Of a stretch of DNA of 64,000 bases, positions 25,238 through 35,210 are shown piece by piece. The position numbers and the translations under genes were made by a program. Each line of letters opens with the position of its first letter. Positions within the stretch are counted from its first letter, which is position 1. Under the pieces are notes generated by a model that saw nothing but the letters and a program-made list of their open reading frames with translations, was not told the origin of the DNA and did not search any database. The stretch comes from Roseburia hominis (lineage in GTDB: Bacteria; Bacillota; Clostridia; Lachnospirales; Lachnospiraceae), in the NCBI GenBank assembly GCA_021771815.1, contig JAETOE010000010.1, positions 1-64,000 of the forward strand, written 5' to 3'.

Positions 25238-25430
25238 AGAATTCTCCTTTGAACAAGCATGGATTTATAGTTATATTATAGCCGCTTTTCCATTGTTATA
25301 CAAATTAAATATTTGGATAACCAAAAAAATTTTTCTATGGGAAATATTTTACTTTTCATAGTAAATTAATTGTTATAAAATAATGATGATATATTATTTT
25401 ATAATGCAAACATATATTCGGTGGAGAAAT

Positions 25431-26447
25431 ATGGTAATTACATATCTGGATAAGCTTCGGGAAGAATATTTACAGGAGAAGCTTGAGAGTGAAAAAGAAT
25501 TAAATCGTCTGCAGATTACAGCTCGGGAGACAGAACAATTTATCCTTTTGCTTGAGGAGACAAATGATCCAAACTACGAATCGTTTACTCCGAGGGAAGT
25601 CAATTCCAAGAATAAGAAGAAGATTACTGAATTGAGGGAAGAGCAAAAGGAAATACAGGAATCGATTGTACAGGCGCGTACATATTATGAAACTTGTGAA
25701 AAGAAACTCACGGAGTTGGAACAGGTTTTAAAAGAAGCAAAGAAAGAAGCTGCCAGAAATGCGCAGAACGCTTTCAATAATGAGAAATATCGGACTTCTG
25801 TTTTGGAAACGCAGGAGAATGAGAGAAAGCGTATATCAAGAGAGCTTCACGATTCTACCGTCCAGAATCTGACGAGTCTGGTACATAAAACAGAACTTTG
25901 TAGTAAGCTTGTTGAGATGGATCCTCTTCGCTGCAAGTTGGAGTTGACTACCATGTCAAAGACGCTGCGGGAAATTATTAATGATATGCGGCAAATGATT
26001 TATAATCTACGTCCAATGTCATTTGATGATATTGGTCTGGATATCACGATTGAACGTGCGCTTGATAAGTTGGAACGGAGTGAAACAAAGAAAATACATT
26101 TTTCCGTGGAAGGTGAATCTTATCAGATTAAGTCTATTATCGGGATTACTCTTCTTCGTATTATTCAGGAAGCATGCAGCAATGCAATTCGTCATGCAGA
26201 TCCGACTATGATACAGGTTATTTTAAAGTATGAGGAAGATAATGTTTCAGTTGTGATCAGAGATGATGGATCAGGATTTGATGTCGAAGCGGATGATACG
26301 ATGTCCAGAGAAGATAATTCCGGTTTTGGATTACCGATGATGAAAGAAAGAGTTTATTTTTTATCAGGTACAATTTCTATAGAATCTGAAATAGGAAAGG
26401 GTACGACAATAAATGTACAGGTACCGATTAATAAGGAGGATATTTAG
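25431..26447 (+). CDS. DegS-like cytosolic sensor histidine kinase
   Basis: The ATG at 25431 (MVITYLDKLREEY) is preferred because GGTGGAG lies before it; 338 residues. No membrane segment is present. The first ~140 residues are strongly predicted coiled coil, rich in Glu, Lys and Gln. The dimerisation/phosphoacceptor helix is ENERKRISRELHDSTVQNL (HisKA_3 type), and the ATPase domain shows EACSNAIRHADPT, RDDGSGFD and GFGLPMMKERV. This is the DegS-like layout. The response regulator starts three bases downstream, so both are translated from one message. The signal sensed is unknown. Confidence 0.88.
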   Translation: MVITYLDKLREEYLQEKLESEKELNRLQITARETEQFILLLEETNDPNYESFTPREVNSKNKKKITELREEQKEIQESIVQARTYYETCEKKLTELEQVLKEAKKEAARNAQNAFNNEKYRTSVLETQENERKRISRELHDSTVQNLTSLVHKTELCSKLVEMDPLRCKLELTTMSKTLREIINDMRQMIYNLRPMSFDDIGLDITIERALDKLERSETKKIHFSVEGESYQIKSIIGITLLRIIQEACSNAIRHADPTMIQVILKYEEDNVSVVIRDDGSGFDVEADDTMSREDNSGFGLPMMKERVYFLSGTISIESEIGKGTTINVQVPINKEDI

Positions 26448-26450
26448 TTT

Positions 26451-27095
26451 ATGGCAGTAAAAGTAATGATTGCAGATGATCATTCTATGATTCGTGAGGG
26501 ATTAAAACAGTTGCTTGAGTTGGAGGGAGATTTTGAAGTAATTGCTGAAGCATGTGACGGTATAGATTGTCTTAATAAATTAGAAGATATTTATCCTGAC
26601 GTTTTGTTGTTGGATATCAATATGCCAAAGAAGAATGGACTGGAAGTTCTTGAATCATTAAAGCGGCGGAGAAATAAGGTTAAAGTTCTTGTTCTTACCG
26701 TACACAATGAAGTGGAATATCTGCTCAAAGCAGTTGATATCGGAGTGAACGGATATCTGCTCAAAGATTCAGAATCCTCTGAACTTAAGAAAGCAATTCT
26801 TGCAGTTGTCGGCGGAGATGATTATATACAGCCTAGTCTGATTCCTGTCTTGAATGCAAAGATGATTGACCGTGATAATGACAGTGAGAAATTAAACAAG
26901 CTTACAAAGAGGGAGTTAGAAGTATTAAAGCTTCTTGCATTTGGTATGTATAATAAGGATGTTGCAGAACGATTAGAAATCAGTGAGCGTACAGTTAAGA
27001 ATCATGTATCAAATATCTTTAAAAAGATTTCTGTTACAGACCGTACACAGGCAGCAGTATTTGCTATTCGTAATAATCTGATTTCAGTTCATTAA
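26451..27095 (+). CDS. DegU-like response regulator, NarL/LuxR family
   Basis: A 214-residue regulator. The receiver domain begins KVMIADDHSMIREGL and carries the phosphoacceptor aspartate in VLLLDINMPKKNGLEVL. The C-terminal LuxR-type helix-turn-helix is LTKRELEVLKLLAFGMYNKD followed by SERTVKNHVSNIFKKI. It pairs with the upstream kinase. Targets are unknown; proximity to the repeat region and parS sites does not by itself imply a link. Its terminator contains a parS-like palindrome. Confidence 0.92.
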   Translation: MAVKVMIADDHSMIREGLKQLLELEGDFEVIAEACDGIDCLNKLEDIYPDVLLLDINMPKKNGLEVLESLKRRRNKVKVLVLTVHNEVEYLLKAVDIGVNGYLLKDSESSELKKAILAVVGGDDYIQPSLIPVLNAKMIDRDNDSEKLNKLTKRELEVLKLLAFGMYNKDVAERLEISERTVKNHVSNIFKKISVTDRTQAAVFAIRNNLISVH

Positions 27096-27105
27096 TTGAT
27101 TAAAA

Positions 27106-27147
27106 ATCCGGAGATGTTTCATGTGAAACAATTCCGGATTTTTTTAA
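27106..27147 (+). terminator. Terminator of the two-component operon with a parS-like loop
   Basis: AAAATCCGGA pairs with TCCGGATTTT and is followed by a run of T. The loop between the arms is itself a near-perfect palindrome resembling parS. Confidence 0.8.
27115..27130. promoter_or_regulatory. parS: parS-like site, one mismatch
   Basis: TGTTTCATGTGAAACA differs from the Spo0J/ParB consensus TGTTTCACGTGAAACA at one central base. It lies inside the terminator hairpin of the response-regulator gene, 1.3 kb left of two perfect sites. Confidence 0.65.
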
Positions 27148-28409
27148 TCAATGGAATTCTATTTAGATTGTCTTTTGAACTTTTTCTGTTCATATTCCAT
27201 ATTTCTTACACAAAATGATGTGTGATGGTTTGCTGATGTGTTTTCATGAACAGAGGATAATAGAGCAAATTTTTTCGGAAGTATTAAGCCGATTTTTTAA
27301 AAAAATTATGATAAAACAGCACAGCTTTGAATCTTTTGCTATTAAAATCCATGCGTAAGATCTGTGTCTCAAAGATTTATGCAGTTACACTTTTGTTTAG
27401 AAATCCACCAAGTATTGCCCGGAAGTTCATAATATCTGCTACTCATGAAATGCGTTTAGGCGGAGTGACAATTCATTGAAAAACAGGGAATTAAAGAGAC
27501 GGAATGCTGTCCGTTGGAATTTCAGAAATATGTGACCAGAAAACTCTTAAAAAAACAGAGCCATGCAAGGATTTTATTGAAGAAACACAGTGTTAAAGAG
27601 ATGAAACACAGTTGGCTAGAAATATGCGAGCAAAAAATTATTGAAAAAATAAAGTATCAAAGAGACGGAATGCTGCCCGTTAGAAATTCAGAAATATGGG
27701 AAAAAACTGTAAAGATCAGATTCATGCGATAATTTATTGAAGAAACGAGTATCAGAAAGACGGGATACTGCCTGTTAGAAATTCAAAAATATAAGACCAG
27801 AAAACTGCAAAAAATCGGATTTATACGACGGTTTATTAAACAAAGAGTATCAAAGAGAGGGGATGCCGCCTGTTAGAAATTCAAAAATGTAAGATCAGAA
27901 AACTTGTGAAGAATCAGATTCATGCGACGATTTATTGAAAAAACGGAGTATCAAATAGATGGAATGCTCCCTGTTAGAAATTCAAGAATGTAAGATCAGA
28001 AAACTTGTGAAGAATCAGATTCATGCGACGATTTATAAAAACCAGAGTCAAATAGATGGAATGCTGTCCGTTAGGAATCCAGAAATATGCGACCGAAAAC
28101 TGCTGAAGAATCAAATTAATGCGAAAAATTTATCGAATACAAAATAGTAAGGAGAGCATAAAGCGGTCGGTAATTATGGATAAAATTTGTATGTATATGT
28201 GGTAATAGAATAATAGAATATCAGAATAGATGTGTTAGCGAAATCTTTTATAAAAAAGAAGTTATCTAAATGTGTTACACAGAATATGGATTTTATTATA
28301 TACATAAGAGTATTCCAAATCATTATAGATGCATTGGTATTTTCTAAAACAAAGCAATAATCAAGCTTTCAGATATAATAATGCCCTTTTTTGAACTAAA
28401 AAAAGAAAA
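27148..28409. other. Non-coding region between the two-component operon and parAB
   Basis: About 1.26 kb with no credible gene. Bases 27148-27490 are AT-rich and show nothing recognisable. Bases 27495-28146 are a tandem repeat array described separately. Bases 28147-28409 are again AT-rich without repeats or promoters I trust. Two frames inside the array (27514-27732 and 27959-28147) are open but differ in frame from repeat to repeat, so they are unlikely to be genes. Confidence 0.6.
27495..28146. repeat. Seven degenerate ~100-bp tandem repeats
   Basis: Units containing AGAC/AGAT-GGAATGCT followed by GTTAGAAATTCA begin near 27497, 27599, 27663, 27758, 27856, 27957 and 28054, so spacings are 102, 64, 95, 98, 101 and 97 bp. 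Units five and six share a stretch of about 65 bp with a single difference (from 27871 and 27972), which indicates recent duplication; the outer units are more diverged. The period is not a multiple of three throughout and stop codons interrupt all frames, so the array is non-coding. Confidence 0.85.
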
Positions 28410-28425
28410 TGTTTCACGTGAAACA
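28410..28425. promoter_or_regulatory. parS: parS site, perfect consensus
   Basis: TGTTTCACGTGAAACA, the exact Spo0J/ParB consensus, with the palindrome extending to 22 bp (AAA on the left, TTT on the right). A half site TGTTTCAC lies at 28440-28447. It is about 200 bp before parA. Confidence 0.95.
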
Positions 28426-28514
28426 TTTATTTTCAAAATTGTTTCACACCTAAATCCACAAGATTTTGTATTTACAAAAAATAAGAAATACAACAATTAG
28501 AAATAAAGAGGAAA

Positions 28515-28530
28515 TGTTTCACGTGAAACA
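28515..28530. promoter_or_regulatory. parS: parS site, perfect consensus
   Basis: A second exact TGTTTCACGTGAAACA, 105 bp after the first and about 34 bp upstream of the parAB -10 element. ParB bound here could repress its own operon. Confidence 0.95.
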
Positions 28531-28560
28531 TTTTTGGGTGTAGCAATGAGAATGTAGAAG

Positions 28561-28569
28561 TGATATAAT
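28561..28569 (+). promoter_or_regulatory. Extended -10 promoter of parAB
   Basis: TGATATAAT gives an extended -10 (TGn plus TATAAT) about 41 bp before the parA start; no good -35 is present at the usual distance. The adjacent parS makes autoregulation likely. Confidence 0.55.
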
Positions 28570-28610
28570 GGACAAGTAAACGATAAAAGAGGATGAAAAG
28601 AGGAAAAGAT

Positions 28611-29369
28611 ATGAGTAGAATTATAGCAATCGCAAACCAAAAAGGAGGAGTTGGTAAGACAACAACGGCAATTAATTTATCTTCCTGTCTTGCCGAAGCG
28701 GGAAAAAGAGTACTGACAATCGATCTCGATCCGCAGGGAAATATGACAAGTGGTTTAGGTGTAGATAAAGCGGAATTAGAATATACTGTTTATGAACTAA
28801 TGCTTGATGAGTGTTCCATAAAAGAGAGTATGACAGACACCGTTGTTGAAGGAATGAAACTTATTCCATCTAATGTAAATCTCGCCGGAGCGGAGATTGA
28901 ATTGTTGGGTATCAACGAGAAGGAATATATTCTGAAGAATGCAGTAGATTATATCAGAGATGATTATGATTTTATTATCATTGATTGTCCACCATCTCTG
29001 AACATGCTCACAATCAATGCAATGACGACAGCAGATTCCATATTGGTTCCGATCCAGTGTGAGTATTACGCACTTGAAGGATTAAGCCAGTTGATACATA
29101 CCATTGATCTTGTACAGCAGAGATTGAATCCCGAATTGAAAATAGACGGAGTGGTATTTACCATGTACGATGTCCGCACGAATCTTTCCAATCAGGTCGT
29201 TGAGAACGTAAAAGAAAATTTGGACACGAAGATTTATGAGACATTAATTCCGAGAAATATACGATTAGCGGAAGCACCATCTCATGGACTTCCAATTAAT
29301 ATGTATGATGCAAAGTCTGCCGGAACAGAGAGCTATCGGTTATTGGCAAAAGAAGTTATGGAAAGGTAG
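28611..29369 (+). CDS. parA: Chromosome-partitioning ATPase ParA/Soj
   Basis: The start MSRIIAIANQKGGVGKTTT is preferred for its AGAGGA site; an ATG 18 bp upstream lacks one. The 252-residue deviant-Walker ATPase has KGGVGKTTTAINL (with the signature lysine), DLDPQGNMTSGLG and IIDCPPSLNMLTINAM. Soj moves with ParB-parS complexes and also modulates DnaA. It lies 11 bp ahead of parB. Confidence 0.96.
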   Translation: MSRIIAIANQKGGVGKTTTAINLSSCLAEAGKRVLTIDLDPQGNMTSGLGVDKAELEYTVYELMLDECSIKESMTDTVVEGMKLIPSNVNLAGAEIELLGINEKEYILKNAVDYIRDDYDFIIIDCPPSLNMLTINAMTTADSILVPIQCEYYALEGLSQLIHTIDLVQQRLNPELKIDGVVFTMYDVRTNLSNQVVENVKENLDTKIYETLIPRNIRLAEAPSHGLPINMYDAKSAGTESYRLLAKEVMER

Positions 29370-29380
29370 GGATATCGAAT

Positions 29381-30304
29381 ATGGCAGGTGCGAAAAAAGG
29401 CGGGTTAGGAAAAGGTATCGATTCCCTGATTCCAAATAAAGTAAATAATACGAAGCCGGTGGAGAAAACAGAGGAACCAAAAGTTGAAAATGAAAAAGTG
29501 GTTGAGGGTGTTCTTGTCAGCATTAATAAAGTAGAGCCGAACAGAGAACAGCCACGTAAGAATTTTGATGAAGATGCTCTCTTAGAACTTTCTGAATCCA
29601 TCAAACAGTTCGGAGTGTTACAGCCGCTTCTCGTACAGGACAAAAAAGATTATTATGAGATCATTGCCGGAGAGCGTAGATGGCGTGCGGCAAAGCTTGC
29701 AGGATTGAAAGAAGTTCCGGTTATTATTAAGAATCTCACAGAGCAGGAAGTCGTTGAAATTTCTTTGATCGAGAATATACAACGCGAAAACTTAAATCCG
29801 ATTGAAGAAGCGATTGCGTATAAGAGACTTCTTACAGAGTTTAATCTTAAGCAGGATGAAGTTGCAGAGCGTGTGTCGAAGAGCCGAACAGCTGTTACAA
29901 ATTCCATGCGTCTCCTCAAACTGAATGATAAAGTGCAGCAGATGGTAATTGATGATATGATTACCACAGGACATGCGAGAGCTCTTCTCGGTATCGAGGA
30001 TTATGATAAGCAGTACACGACTGCGCAGAAAATATTTGATGAAAAGCTGAGTGTTCGTGAGACGGAGAAGCTTGTTAAGAAAATCCAGCAGGAAAAGGAT
30101 CAGCCGACTGCGAAAGAGGAGACAAAGCTTGACCCGAAGTTGGAAGCCATTTATCATGATCTGGAAGAAAATTTAAAAGCGATTCTCGGTACAAAGGTCG
30201 CTATCAATCAGAAAGATGACAAAAAAGGAAAAATCGAGATTGAGTATTATTCCATGGATGAACTGGATCGTATCATTGATATGATCCGCACAATTAGAAA
30301 ATAG
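29381..30304 (+). CDS. parB: Chromosome-partitioning protein ParB/Spo0J
   Basis: A 307-residue ParB. It has the CTPase motif region (SIKQFGVLQPLLV and AGERRWRAAKLAGLKEVPVI), the helix-turn-helix (QDEVAERVSKSRTAVTNSMRLL) and a C-terminal dimerisation domain (YYSMDELDRIIDMIRTI). It binds parS and spreads as a CTP-dependent clamp, recruiting SMC. The starting lysine-rich stretch GLGKGIDSLIP is the conserved segment that stimulates ParA. The cognate parS sites lie just upstream. Confidence 0.96.
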   Translation: MAGAKKGGLGKGIDSLIPNKVNNTKPVEKTEEPKVENEKVVEGVLVSINKVEPNREQPRKNFDEDALLELSESIKQFGVLQPLLVQDKKDYYEIIAGERRWRAAKLAGLKEVPVIIKNLTEQEVVEISLIENIQRENLNPIEEAIAYKRLLTEFNLKQDEVAERVSKSRTAVTNSMRLLKLNDKVQQMVIDDMITTGHARALLGIEDYDKQYTTAQKIFDEKLSVRETEKLVKKIQQEKDQPTAKEETKLDPKLEAIYHDLEENLKAILGTKVAINQKDDKKGKIEIEYYSMDELDRIIDMIRTIRK

Positions 30305-33125: not shown

Positions 33126-33179
33126 AAAGTTAGATTGATGCGCATTTAACGCAGAAAGAAATGCATGGAGGATATGACT

Positions 33180-35210
33180 ATGGATAAGAAGGATTCATTA
33201 GCACCAAAGGAGAAAAAGGGTAAGAATCAGACAGTTGCCGCTATTTCCATATTAGCTGCTGCTGCGTTGCTTGTTGCGGATCTGTTTGTACTGATTCGTA
33301 TGCCGGAAGATAATCTGGCTCCTATCGTTATTACTGTTCTGATGCTTGCCGGAGTCTACTTATCTGTCAATGCGATTCTTAAAGAAATACGTGAAAGTAA
33401 ACATCAGGCAGAAGAGCAGTACGATATGATTTTTAAATCGGGAAAAGCTTCTTATCTGATGATGAAGAAAGCGCTCGAACAGCTCGATGGGATTGAAGGT
33501 AGTATGGATATACCTGCGGATGATCTGATCACGACACAGAAGTCGATTGCCAAGCTGACCATTACAAGAAGCAAGGAAAATGCGATGGCTATCATGAATT
33601 CTAATGAAAGACTCTTAGATCATATATTGGAATTTAAAGATAAACTGGATACGAACCAGATCGAGTTTTTAGAGAAGAATCAAAGTATACTTGACGCTTC
33701 CATAAATGAGATATTGGAAAAGCAGCAGGAGATTTTCTCAAGTATTATGGATATGCAGAATTCTGCCGGGAAAGATTCTGCCGAGACAGCAGATGAGGTC
33801 ACGGAAAATTTGGCGCAGGCGATAGAATCTGTTTTGAGCATGAAAGAAGAGCTGTTACAACAGAACTCGCAGATAAAGGAAGAGCTGATGCAGCAGAACT
33901 CGCAGATAAAGGATAATTTACTGCAGCAGAATGTACAGATGAAGGAAGAACTGATGGCAGCCGTGGCTCAGGTACAGCAGGCGGTTCCCGCAGCTTCTCC
34001 GGTTGTGCAGATGCAGCCACCTGTTGGAGAAGATATTGGTTTTGTTGAGAGTTTTGGAGACACAGAATCAGAAATGGGACTGACGGGGATCGGAGACATT
34101 GATTTTGTAGAGGATTCCGGAGACACAGAATCAGAAATGGGACTGACAGGGATCGGAGACATTGATTTTGCGGAGGATTCCGGAGATACAGAATCAGAGA
34201 TGGGATTGACGGGAATCGGAGACATTGATTTTGTAGAGGATTCTGGAGACACAGAATCAGAAATGGGACTGACAGGGATCGGAGACATTGATTTTGCGGA
34301 GGATTCCGGAGACACAGAATCAGAAATGGGACTGACAGGGATCGGAGACATTGATTTTGCAGAGGATTCCGGAGACACAGAATCAGAAATGGGACTGACA
34401 GGAATTGGGGATATTGATTTTGTAGATAGTCTTGGAGATACAGAACCGGAAGTCGGATTGACAGGAGATGAAGATATAGATTTTGCGGATAGCCTTGGAG
34501 GGGCAGAAGAAGAAGAGGGATTGACCGGTCTTGGAGATATAGACTTTGCGGATAATCTCGGAGAGGCAGAAGAAGAACTGGAAATGGGGCTTCCTGAAAT
34601 TGGAGATGTAGAGTTTACGGATAGTCTCGGAGATACAGAGAAAGTTGAGATCACAAGTGATTATAAAGATGAAGAGAAGAATGAAGAACTGAGCTTCTTG
34701 GATGACATGAATCTGGAAGCGGAAATGGAAGCCGAGGATATCGAATTTGCAGACAGTATTGGAGAGGCAGAAAAGATTGAAATTTCAGACGACTTCGAAG
34801 AAGAGGAGAAAGAAGATTTAAGCTTCTTGAATGATATGAATCTGGAAGCGGAGTTGGAAGCCGGAGTGGAAGGAGCCGGAGAGATTGATTTTGCAGACAA
34901 TTTAGGCGAGATAGAAAGCACAGAGATCACGGAAGGCTCCGGAGAAGAGGAGGAGAAAGAAGATTTAAGCTTCTTGAATGATATGAATCTGGAAGCGGAG
35001 TTGGAGTCAGAACCAGAATTAGTATCAGAACCGGAACATATATCAGAACCGGAGTTAGTATCAGAACCCGAGAAGCCGGCAGCTTCCAATGTGATTCCAA
35101 TGACAGTTCCGGAACCGGAAAAGAAAGAAGAACCGGCAAAAGCAGCGGCATCCGATCCGCATAAAATGATGACGCCGGATGAGATTGCAGCATTGATTGC
35201 AAGTATGTAA
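33180..35210 (+). CDS. Membrane-anchored protein with acidic 21-residue repeats and FliM/FliN-like C-terminal peptide
   Basis: The ATG at 33180 has GGAGG eight bases before it (676 residues). Two hydrophobic segments at about residues 20-40 and 46-66 form a hairpin anchor; residues 70-280 are predicted helical/coiled coil, including two QQNSQIKEEL-type heptad repeats. From about residue 290 come six 21-residue units (core GDTESEMGLTGIGDIDF) and then more diverged acidic units with DLSFLNDMNLEAE motifs. It ends DPHKMMTPDEIAALIASM, resembling the EIDALL peptide of FliM/FliN that binds phosphorylated CheY. I do not recognise the family; the whole C-terminal half is probably disordered. It could be a scaffold at the membrane. 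Confidence 0.75.
   Translation: MDKKDSLAPKEKKGKNQTVAAISILAAAALLVADLFVLIRMPEDNLAPIVITVLMLAGVYLSVNAILKEIRESKHQAEEQYDMIFKSGKASYLMMKKALEQLDGIEGSMDIPADDLITTQKSIAKLTITRSKENAMAIMNSNERLLDHILEFKDKLDTNQIEFLEKNQSILDASINEILEKQQEIFSSIMDMQNSAGKDSAETADEVTENLAQAIESVLSMKEELLQQNSQIKEELMQQNSQIKDNLLQQNVQMKEELMAAVAQVQQAVPAASPVVQMQPPVGEDIGFVESFGDTESEMGLTGIGDIDFVEDSGDTESEMGLTGIGDIDFAEDSGDTESEMGLTGIGDIDFVEDSGDTESEMGLTGIGDIDFAEDSGDTESEMGLTGIGDIDFAEDSGDTESEMGLTGIGDIDFVDSLGDTEPEVGLTGDEDIDFADSLGGAEEEEGLTGLGDIDFADNLGEAEEELEMGLPEIGDVEFTDSLGDTEKVEITSDYKDEEKNEELSFLDDMNLEAEMEAEDIEFADSIGEAEKIEISDDFEEEEKEDLSFLNDMNLEAELEAGVEGAGEIDFADNLGEIESTEITEGSGEEEEKEDLSFLNDMNLEAELESEPELVSEPEHISEPELVSEPEKPAASNVIPMTVPEPEKKEEPAKAAASDPHKMMTPDEIAALIASM
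34051..34430 (+). repeat. 63-bp in-gene tandem repeats
   Basis: Six near-identical 63-bp units encode GDTESEMGLTGIGDIDF plus four variable residues. Neighbouring units differ by a few silent changes and a Val/Ala exchange, so copy number has probably changed recently. Confidence 0.9.

Follow-up and report, generated by a model that had tools for sequence, protein, structure and literature searches.

In chromosome centromeres of the ParABS (Spo0J/Soj) type, 16-bp parS palindromes with the consensus TGTTTCACGTGAAACA lie beside parAB, which encode a ParB of the TIGR00180 family. Excerpts of two papers describe ParB as loading at parS and sliding as a clamp, which tightly bound proteins can block in vitro (PMC10387095, PMC9242446). 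The titles and abstract openings listed in searches of the open-access literature mention neither a terminator-embedded parS nor tandem arrays in chromosomal parS intervals, a weak indication of novelty. Here we describe a parS region of Roseburia hominis with a tandem array and with a parS in a predicted terminator. On our analysis it is a variant of the ParABS type, and it has the look of a bacterial equivalent of the centromere that changes rapidly.

The window is a stretch of 64,000 nucleotides (R. hominis, GCA_021771815.1, contig JAETOE010000010.1, positions 1–64,000, forward strand) from an assembly of 3.74 Mb in 85 contigs. Around the locus the gene order is mnmG, rsmG, an alpha/beta hydrolase gene on the minus strand, a histidine kinase gene, a LuxR-type response regulator (RR) gene, a gene-free stretch, parA and parB (Table 1). 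A homologue of the RR lies upstream of parA in 27 of 39 loci of the genus set described below. The first-pass annotation had placed one near-consensus parS on the left of the gene-free stretch and two perfect ones on the right, and these proved to be the sole sites with at most two mismatches in the assembly (starting at 27115, 28410 and 28515; a reversed control pattern gave one). All three are within 1.5 kb upstream of parA, and the TIGR00180 ParB is encoded adjacent to it, as in a ParABS centromere.

Table 1. Features of the source locus (positions in the window).
Feature	Position	Strand	Basis
Sensor histidine kinase gene	25383..26447	+	Pfam HisKA_3 and HATPase_c
LuxR-type RR gene, last before the gene-free zone	26451..27095	+	Pfam Response_reg and GerE
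Predicted intrinsic terminator of the RR gene, built around parS	27097..27150	+	RNA fold
Left parS, one mismatch	27115..27130	n/a	pattern scan
Tandem array, seven units	27472..28128	+	TRF, self-alignment, sequence model
Array units (second a fragment)	27472-27573, 27574-27637, 27638-27732, 27733-27831, 27832-27931, 27932-28032, 28033-28128
Youngest duplication, 67 bp (27869-27935 to 27970-28036), one mismatch	27869..28036	+
Perfect parS	28410..28425	n/a	pattern scan
Spacer of the parS pair (start to start 105 bp), with CCACAAGATTTTGTATTT motif partly conserved in the genus	28426..28514	+
Perfect parS adjoining the parA promoter	28515..28530	n/a	pattern scan
TATAAT, putative -10 box of the parA promoter (TGATATAAT)	28564..28569	+	sequence; TGATATAA/GATATAAT recurs upstream of parA
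parA (soj)	28611..29369	+	best NCBIfam match ParA_partition, under its curated cut-off
parB (spo0J)	29381..30304	+	TIGR00180, 200.6 bits, cut-off 58.45

The stretch upstream of parA is gene-free, as first annotated, but longer than the 1.26 kb then given: from 27096 to 28592, ~1.5 kb, there is no ORF of at least 100 aa, our definition of a gene-free interval throughout. The longest ORFs listed within it (72 and 62 aa) have no NCBIfam or Pfam match. In a sample of 464 kb, comprising the window and 400 kb from four genomes including the source genome, it is the longest gene-free interval and, among those of at least 400 bp, the most repetitive. These ranks apply to the 100-aa cut-off; at 120 aa, one longer interval (1526 bp) appears in another genome of the same sample. 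The putative -10 box of parA is absent from the listing of our promoter scan.

Two parS sites spaced 103–115 bp start to start, as next to parA here, occur in 21 of the 39 genus-set loci, mostly just upstream of parA (spacings of 95–125 bp were searched). A motif within the spacer is partly conserved, as CCACAAGATTT then ACTAGATTTTGA or as the inverted GTATTT..AAATAC; across the 164 loci of genus and family in which a parS lies no more than 400 bp from parA, ACAAGATT was found in 20 and the reversed control in one. This motif may be a candidate site of some partner protein.

Seven ~100-bp tandem repeats had been noticed beside parAB, and TRF, self-alignment and a sequence model of the units all find them. 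TRF gives a period of 101 with 5.0 copies and 80% matches (27638–28124), the model recovers seven copies (27473–28126) in the 3.74-Mb genome, and the best off-diagonal self-match scores 353 bits, whereas 25 dinucleotide shuffles reach 29 at most. The likeness extends over the whole ~100-bp unit, with a mean column identity of 76% and units ~76–81% alike, and some columns are invariant in all seven. A CRISPR array, which needs near-identical repeats and unrelated spacers, was rejected on this ground. The unit lengths are 102, 64, 95, 99, 100, 101 and 96 bp, so that the 64-bp unit is a fragment and no single reading frame is held from unit to unit, in agreement with the different frames reported earlier. 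The recent duplication reported within the array also exists, although it spans 67 rather than 65 bp, with one mismatch to the copy 101 bp downstream. No kinship of the array with the 105-bp parS-pair spacer was found by eye or in self-comparisons. Elsewhere in the window, the gene at 33165–35210 encodes a protein with 21-residue (63-bp) repeats of 85–88% matches and a 33-bp repeat (33846–34554), which are unrelated to the array.

The unit was found in this one place only. All seven significant matches of the model in the source genome lie in the array, the next three being noise (E 0.097, 0.15 and 0.82), so the unit is not scattered through the genome and a dispersed repeat of the REP, ERIC, BOX or MITE kind was rejected. 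BLAST of the array (E <= 0.001) against 60 genomes, a set without the sister species, found a match in the source genome only, and the model matched none of 38 genus-mate parA loci; the unit therefore does not serve as a marker of parS in relatives, a role that the first-pass annotation had proposed to look for. That annotation had also considered that the array might be the remnant of a known gene or insertion element. Nothing beyond the repeats themselves favours a decayed gene, insertion element or prophage piece, and against it stand the lack of a family match for the ORFs and of any match in phage and plasmid collections, the single place in the genome and unit lengths that are mostly not multiples of three. 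We regard this origin as very improbable.

A transcribed array that functions as a repeated RNA, another of the early proposals, is just as improbable. The units do have one short hairpin in common, with six pairs, two of them with compensatory change. Their consensus fold is weak at -3.5 kcal/mol, though, Rfam gave nothing at gathering score, a simple scan placed no promoter-like site inside the array, and the unit had no match in the 38 genus-mate loci, while other parS intervals carry unrelated arrays (see below). Tandem repetition adjoining parAB and the invariant columns would also suit units that, like those of iteron-type plasmid centromeres, are each bound specifically by a protein, be it ParB, SMC or a protein of the nucleoid or of replication. 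This reading, too, we consider improbable, if a little less so. The best parS-like word in the array has 6 mismatches, and the mean of shuffled sequences is 6.0, by which both decayed parS copies within the units and an iteron-type centromere with a parS word in its unit were rejected; the unit has no match at the locus of the sister species; and A-tract phasing is not significant, 8 of 100 shuffles being as strong (13 of 100 for the whole interval), so curvature of the array was rejected as well.

The sister species (G071, locus L034) is the closest genome on a FastTree tree of MnmG, RsmG, ParA and ParB, with a parA 99% identical. Its layout is that of the source: the RR gene is followed by a hairpin that contains a one-mismatch parS, and then come an interval of 1.74 kb and a matching parS pair. 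The interval likewise contains an array, of ~143 bp units (period 134–154 bp), whose self-match scores 169 bits against at most 33 in shuffles and which was not found elsewhere in the G071 genome. Profiles of the two arrays do not match in either direction (best E 3.6 and 1.8). The arrays thus differ in period and have no detectable kinship at the sequence level, which falls short of proven independent origin: four-fold degenerate sites of the two species agree at only 491 of 841 positions (0.58), so that neutral DNA would align poorly anyway. By the same measure, source units that are ~76–81% alike would be younger than the split of the two species, or homogenised since, if they evolve at the pace of four-fold sites.

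We then compared parS intervals across the genus and the family. The genus set comprises 39 loci, the source locus and 38 others, from the 39 of 62 genus genomes with a ParA match at E <= 1e-90; gaps to parA were counted in the 35 that have a recognisable homologue of the source's upstream neighbour (L055, L060, L062 and L067 were left out). The wider set starts from 396 family genomes, at least 373 of them with a ParA match, listed nearest ParA first; 100 loci were fetched among the listed matches, omitting genomes already used and nine rows near a contig start. To these were added named loci examined earlier (L072–L134, with titles mostly of Lachnospiraceae or Clostridia and a few other labels), while L135–L151, mostly Bacillales, were excluded. 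Minus duplicates and genus members, this leaves 159 distinct loci (1.93 Mb), 60 named and 99 new.

In the genus, the gap between upstream neighbour and parA ranges from 150 to 4306 bp, and long gaps are scattered over the FastTree tree; three close relatives of the source have short ones (L035, 269 bp; L036, 437 bp; L037, 295 bp). Some long gaps contain ORFs of 127–533 aa (L041, L068, L054, L039 and most of L050). In seven of the 18 gaps longer than 400 bp, the self-match reaches 58 bits or more and exceeds all shuffles (the source, L034, L044, L050, L069, L040 and L071); L036 is marginal, and ten do not exceed shuffles. Among these seven, five are tandem arrays with at least three copies, with periods of 101 bp in the source, ~143 bp in L034, 42 bp in L044 (G061) and 10 bp in L050 (G064), and with three ~355-bp units in L069 (G016), at offsets of 336–375 bp, each adjoining a parS. 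The G016 unit was rejected as a mobile palindromic element, since at E <= 0.001 it occurs only at parS in that genome. The other two, L040 and L071, are two-copy duplications. Diverged pairs of palindromic-looking elements lie in the parS intervals of L071 (G030; -1591..-1490 and -861..-760) and L040 (G025; -578..-484 and -355..-277). The 10-bp period of L050, about one helical turn, runs from about -748 to -469 relative to parA with strong A-tract phasing (0 of 100 shuffles), which suggests possibly curved DNA near parS.

In the family, an array in L227 (122-bp units, -1780 to -1085 from parA as oriented) has six parS in 5.7 copies, a site in nearly every unit, and is a case of parS amplification through tandem duplication; further arrays follow in the same 1.8-kb interval. 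L219 has 105-bp units with three parS. Repeats that bear parS were seen only in some relatives, namely L227, L219, L069 and L052, the last with a two-copy repeat. The two L052 (G082) copies are 94% alike and lie at a distance of 215 bp in a 2431-bp gene-free interval away from parA, a parS adjoining each of them. The array of L129 (Coprococcus sp. RGIG9131), with 38-bp units, is without parS. Long AT-rich intervals without repeats also exist, as in L086 and in L127, where 1251 gene-free bp upstream of parA contain nine parS (at most one mismatch). The source unit is thus, as judged from these comparisons, one of several unrelated arrays in unusually long gene-free parS intervals and no conserved centromere element. 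This argues against the suggestion that the array is a centromere-like landing zone in the sense of a conserved, sequence-specific site.

Long gene-free intervals are in excess at parS. Among intervals of at least 50 bp in the 159 loci, 12 of 150 with parS and 1 of 562 without reach 1 kb (p 6e-8), where the controls are gene-free intervals of every kind and not just those between a terminator and a promoter. The excess is present in the new loci (7/92 vs. 1/353, p 9e-5) and in the named ones (5/58 vs. 0/209), and over all interval sizes the counts at 1000 bp or more are 12 of 155 and 1 of 1132. At a threshold of 600 bp they are 28/150 and 19/562 (new loci 18/92 and 12/353). Most parS intervals are nevertheless short, with a median of 307 bp adjoining parA outside the genus set. 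Nearness to parA does not by itself account for the length effect, because parA-adjacent intervals without parS are short (0 of 11 reach 600 bp) and non-adjacent intervals reach 600 bp more often with parS (4/35) than without (19/551, p 0.04).

Repeats themselves are not significantly commoner among intervals of at least 600 bp with parS (7/28) than without (5/19), nor in the new loci alone (4/18 vs. 1/12), and so seem to track long gene-free DNA rather than parS. Promoter-like motifs are not depleted where parS intervals are long: 320 occur and 287.6 are expected (z 1.9), and in 19 other long intervals 51 occur and 36.7 are expected (z 2.3). Selection against promoters within the interval was rejected. 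These results, together with the wide range of genus gap lengths and the short gaps of close relatives, speak for a wholly neutral account, in which DNA near the origin that is framed by a terminator and an outward promoter simply tolerates insertions and duplications, and arrays come and go there as junk with no selection on length or emptiness. This account has to contend with the rarity of kilobase intervals elsewhere in the same loci, given above against controls of all kinds, and with the 1.5–1.7 kb interval present in both sister species despite four-fold sites just 58% alike. We put its probability somewhat short of even; since promoter-like motifs are not depleted, it is nearly as likely for the array itself as the reading preferred below.

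The left parS begins 19 bases past the stop codon of the RR gene, inside a predicted terminator hairpin: arms TCCGGA / TCCGGA enclose the parS palindrome, a T run follows at 27139–27145, and the fold has -24.4 kcal/mol (z -6.8). A simple terminator scan did not list this hairpin because its loop limit of 3–8 bases excludes the nested stem. Similar composites recur. At the first parS after the upstream gene in 33 genus loci, 154 of 264 flank positions are paired, against 83.1 (sd 7.8, maximum 109) when right flanks are dealt among species in 2000 rounds, a permutation that ignores kinship, and stem positions show several pair types. The parS nearest parA shows no excess (81/264 vs. 93.1, sd 6.0). 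The 33 loci are the gaps with parS, 2 of 35 having none, and loci with a single parS count in both sets.

Outside the genus, first parS sites after a gene end have 406 of 840 flank positions paired, against 261.7 (sd 12.7) in the same kinship-blind permutation, and 30 of 105 sites have at least seven of eight flank pairs complementary, where 1.5 (maximum 5) are expected. In the new loci the values are 254 of 488 positions at 61 sites (158.0, sd 10.1) and 21 of 61 sites (mean 1.1, maximum 6), and for the genus 9 of 25 sites (mean 0.8, maximum 4). Other intergenic parS show a weaker excess (genus 7/57 vs. 1.4, maximum 7; family 24/227 vs. 2.5, maximum 11). Few parS fall within ORFs of at least 100 aa (3/86 in the genus, 29/371 in the family). 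As predicted hairpins, parS-terminator composites with compensatory stem changes thus recur across the family.

The first-pass annotation had further proposed that the array is a spacer keeping transcription out of the parS zone. The anatomy agrees with it, with the left parS in a predicted terminator and the parA promoter pointing outward, whereas the undepleted promoter-like motifs do not; as the unit is unique and the long gene-free interval recurs with unrelated arrays, the spacer idea remains. The reading that we prefer, and to which we give an even chance, is that a gene-free interval for ParB loading can expand here and that the array filling it is a tandem repeat specific to the locus and quick to turn over, descriptively a minisatellite or satellite; the filler sequence would be immaterial and would change as satellite DNA does. 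Upstream transcription would be expected to end at the terminator whose hairpin contains the left parS, and the putative parA promoter on the right is directed away from the interval, which would leave it free of transcription. ParB clamps loaded at the flanking parS could then slide over geneless DNA, and SMC could be loaded with little interference; such a zone may be favoured, and its length may be of benefit. What is retained would be the gene-free stretch between the parS sites, the sequence being free to change, and because the stretch and not its sequence is kept, slippage and unequal exchange could build and replace repeats freely; in some relatives parS would duplicate along with the unit. 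In an excerpt of a modelling paper, transcription leaves the ParB profile of Caulobacter largely unchanged (PMC10387095). This counts against the preferred reading, as do the unconserved gap lengths, the ORFs in several gaps, the shortness of most parS intervals, the undepleted promoter-like motifs and the similar share of repeats in long intervals with and without parS.

More tentatively, and on the unlikely side in our judgement, the centromere of Lachnospiraceae would be 'regional' on a small scale: parS sites would enclose a gene-free zone insulated from transcription, and the first of them would double as the terminator of the upstream operon. The zone would be selected for emptiness and its sequence would evolve in a satellite-like way, with species-specific arrays in which parS itself is sometimes multiplied. 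Were this so, the centromere region of a bacterium would resemble eukaryotic centromeres in combining a conserved role with an unconserved, repeat-prone sequence, and one could test whether a track free of transcription helps ParB to slide and SMC to load: natural intervals of 0.15 to 4 kb, with and without arrays, coexist in one family. Independently of the regional centromere, parS sites that act as terminator hairpins would, in many genera, place ParB loading where a transcription unit ends.

Compared with other ParABS centromeres, the source locus stands apart by its long gene-free interval with a species-specific array and by the fusion of its first parS with a predicted terminator hairpin. 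Like intrinsic (Rho-independent) terminators, the hairpin follows a gene end and has a stem, a loop and a T run; it differs from them in that its loop-proximal stem is the parS palindrome. REP/ERIC/BOX intergenic repeats are likewise short, non-coding units; the source array differs in occupying a single place in the genome. Iteron-type plasmid centromeres also have direct repeats beside par genes, while the repeats here are without a parS-like word and are not conserved. Eukaryotic regional centromere satellites differ in that the source array is shorter than 1 kb, ParB loading depends on the sequence of parS and not on the array, and a role in segregation is putative. In the descriptive sense the array is nonetheless satellite-like, being tandem, non-coding, locus-specific and different between sister species, and in L129 the likeness to eukaryotic satellites extends to 38-bp units organised within a 152-bp higher-order unit.
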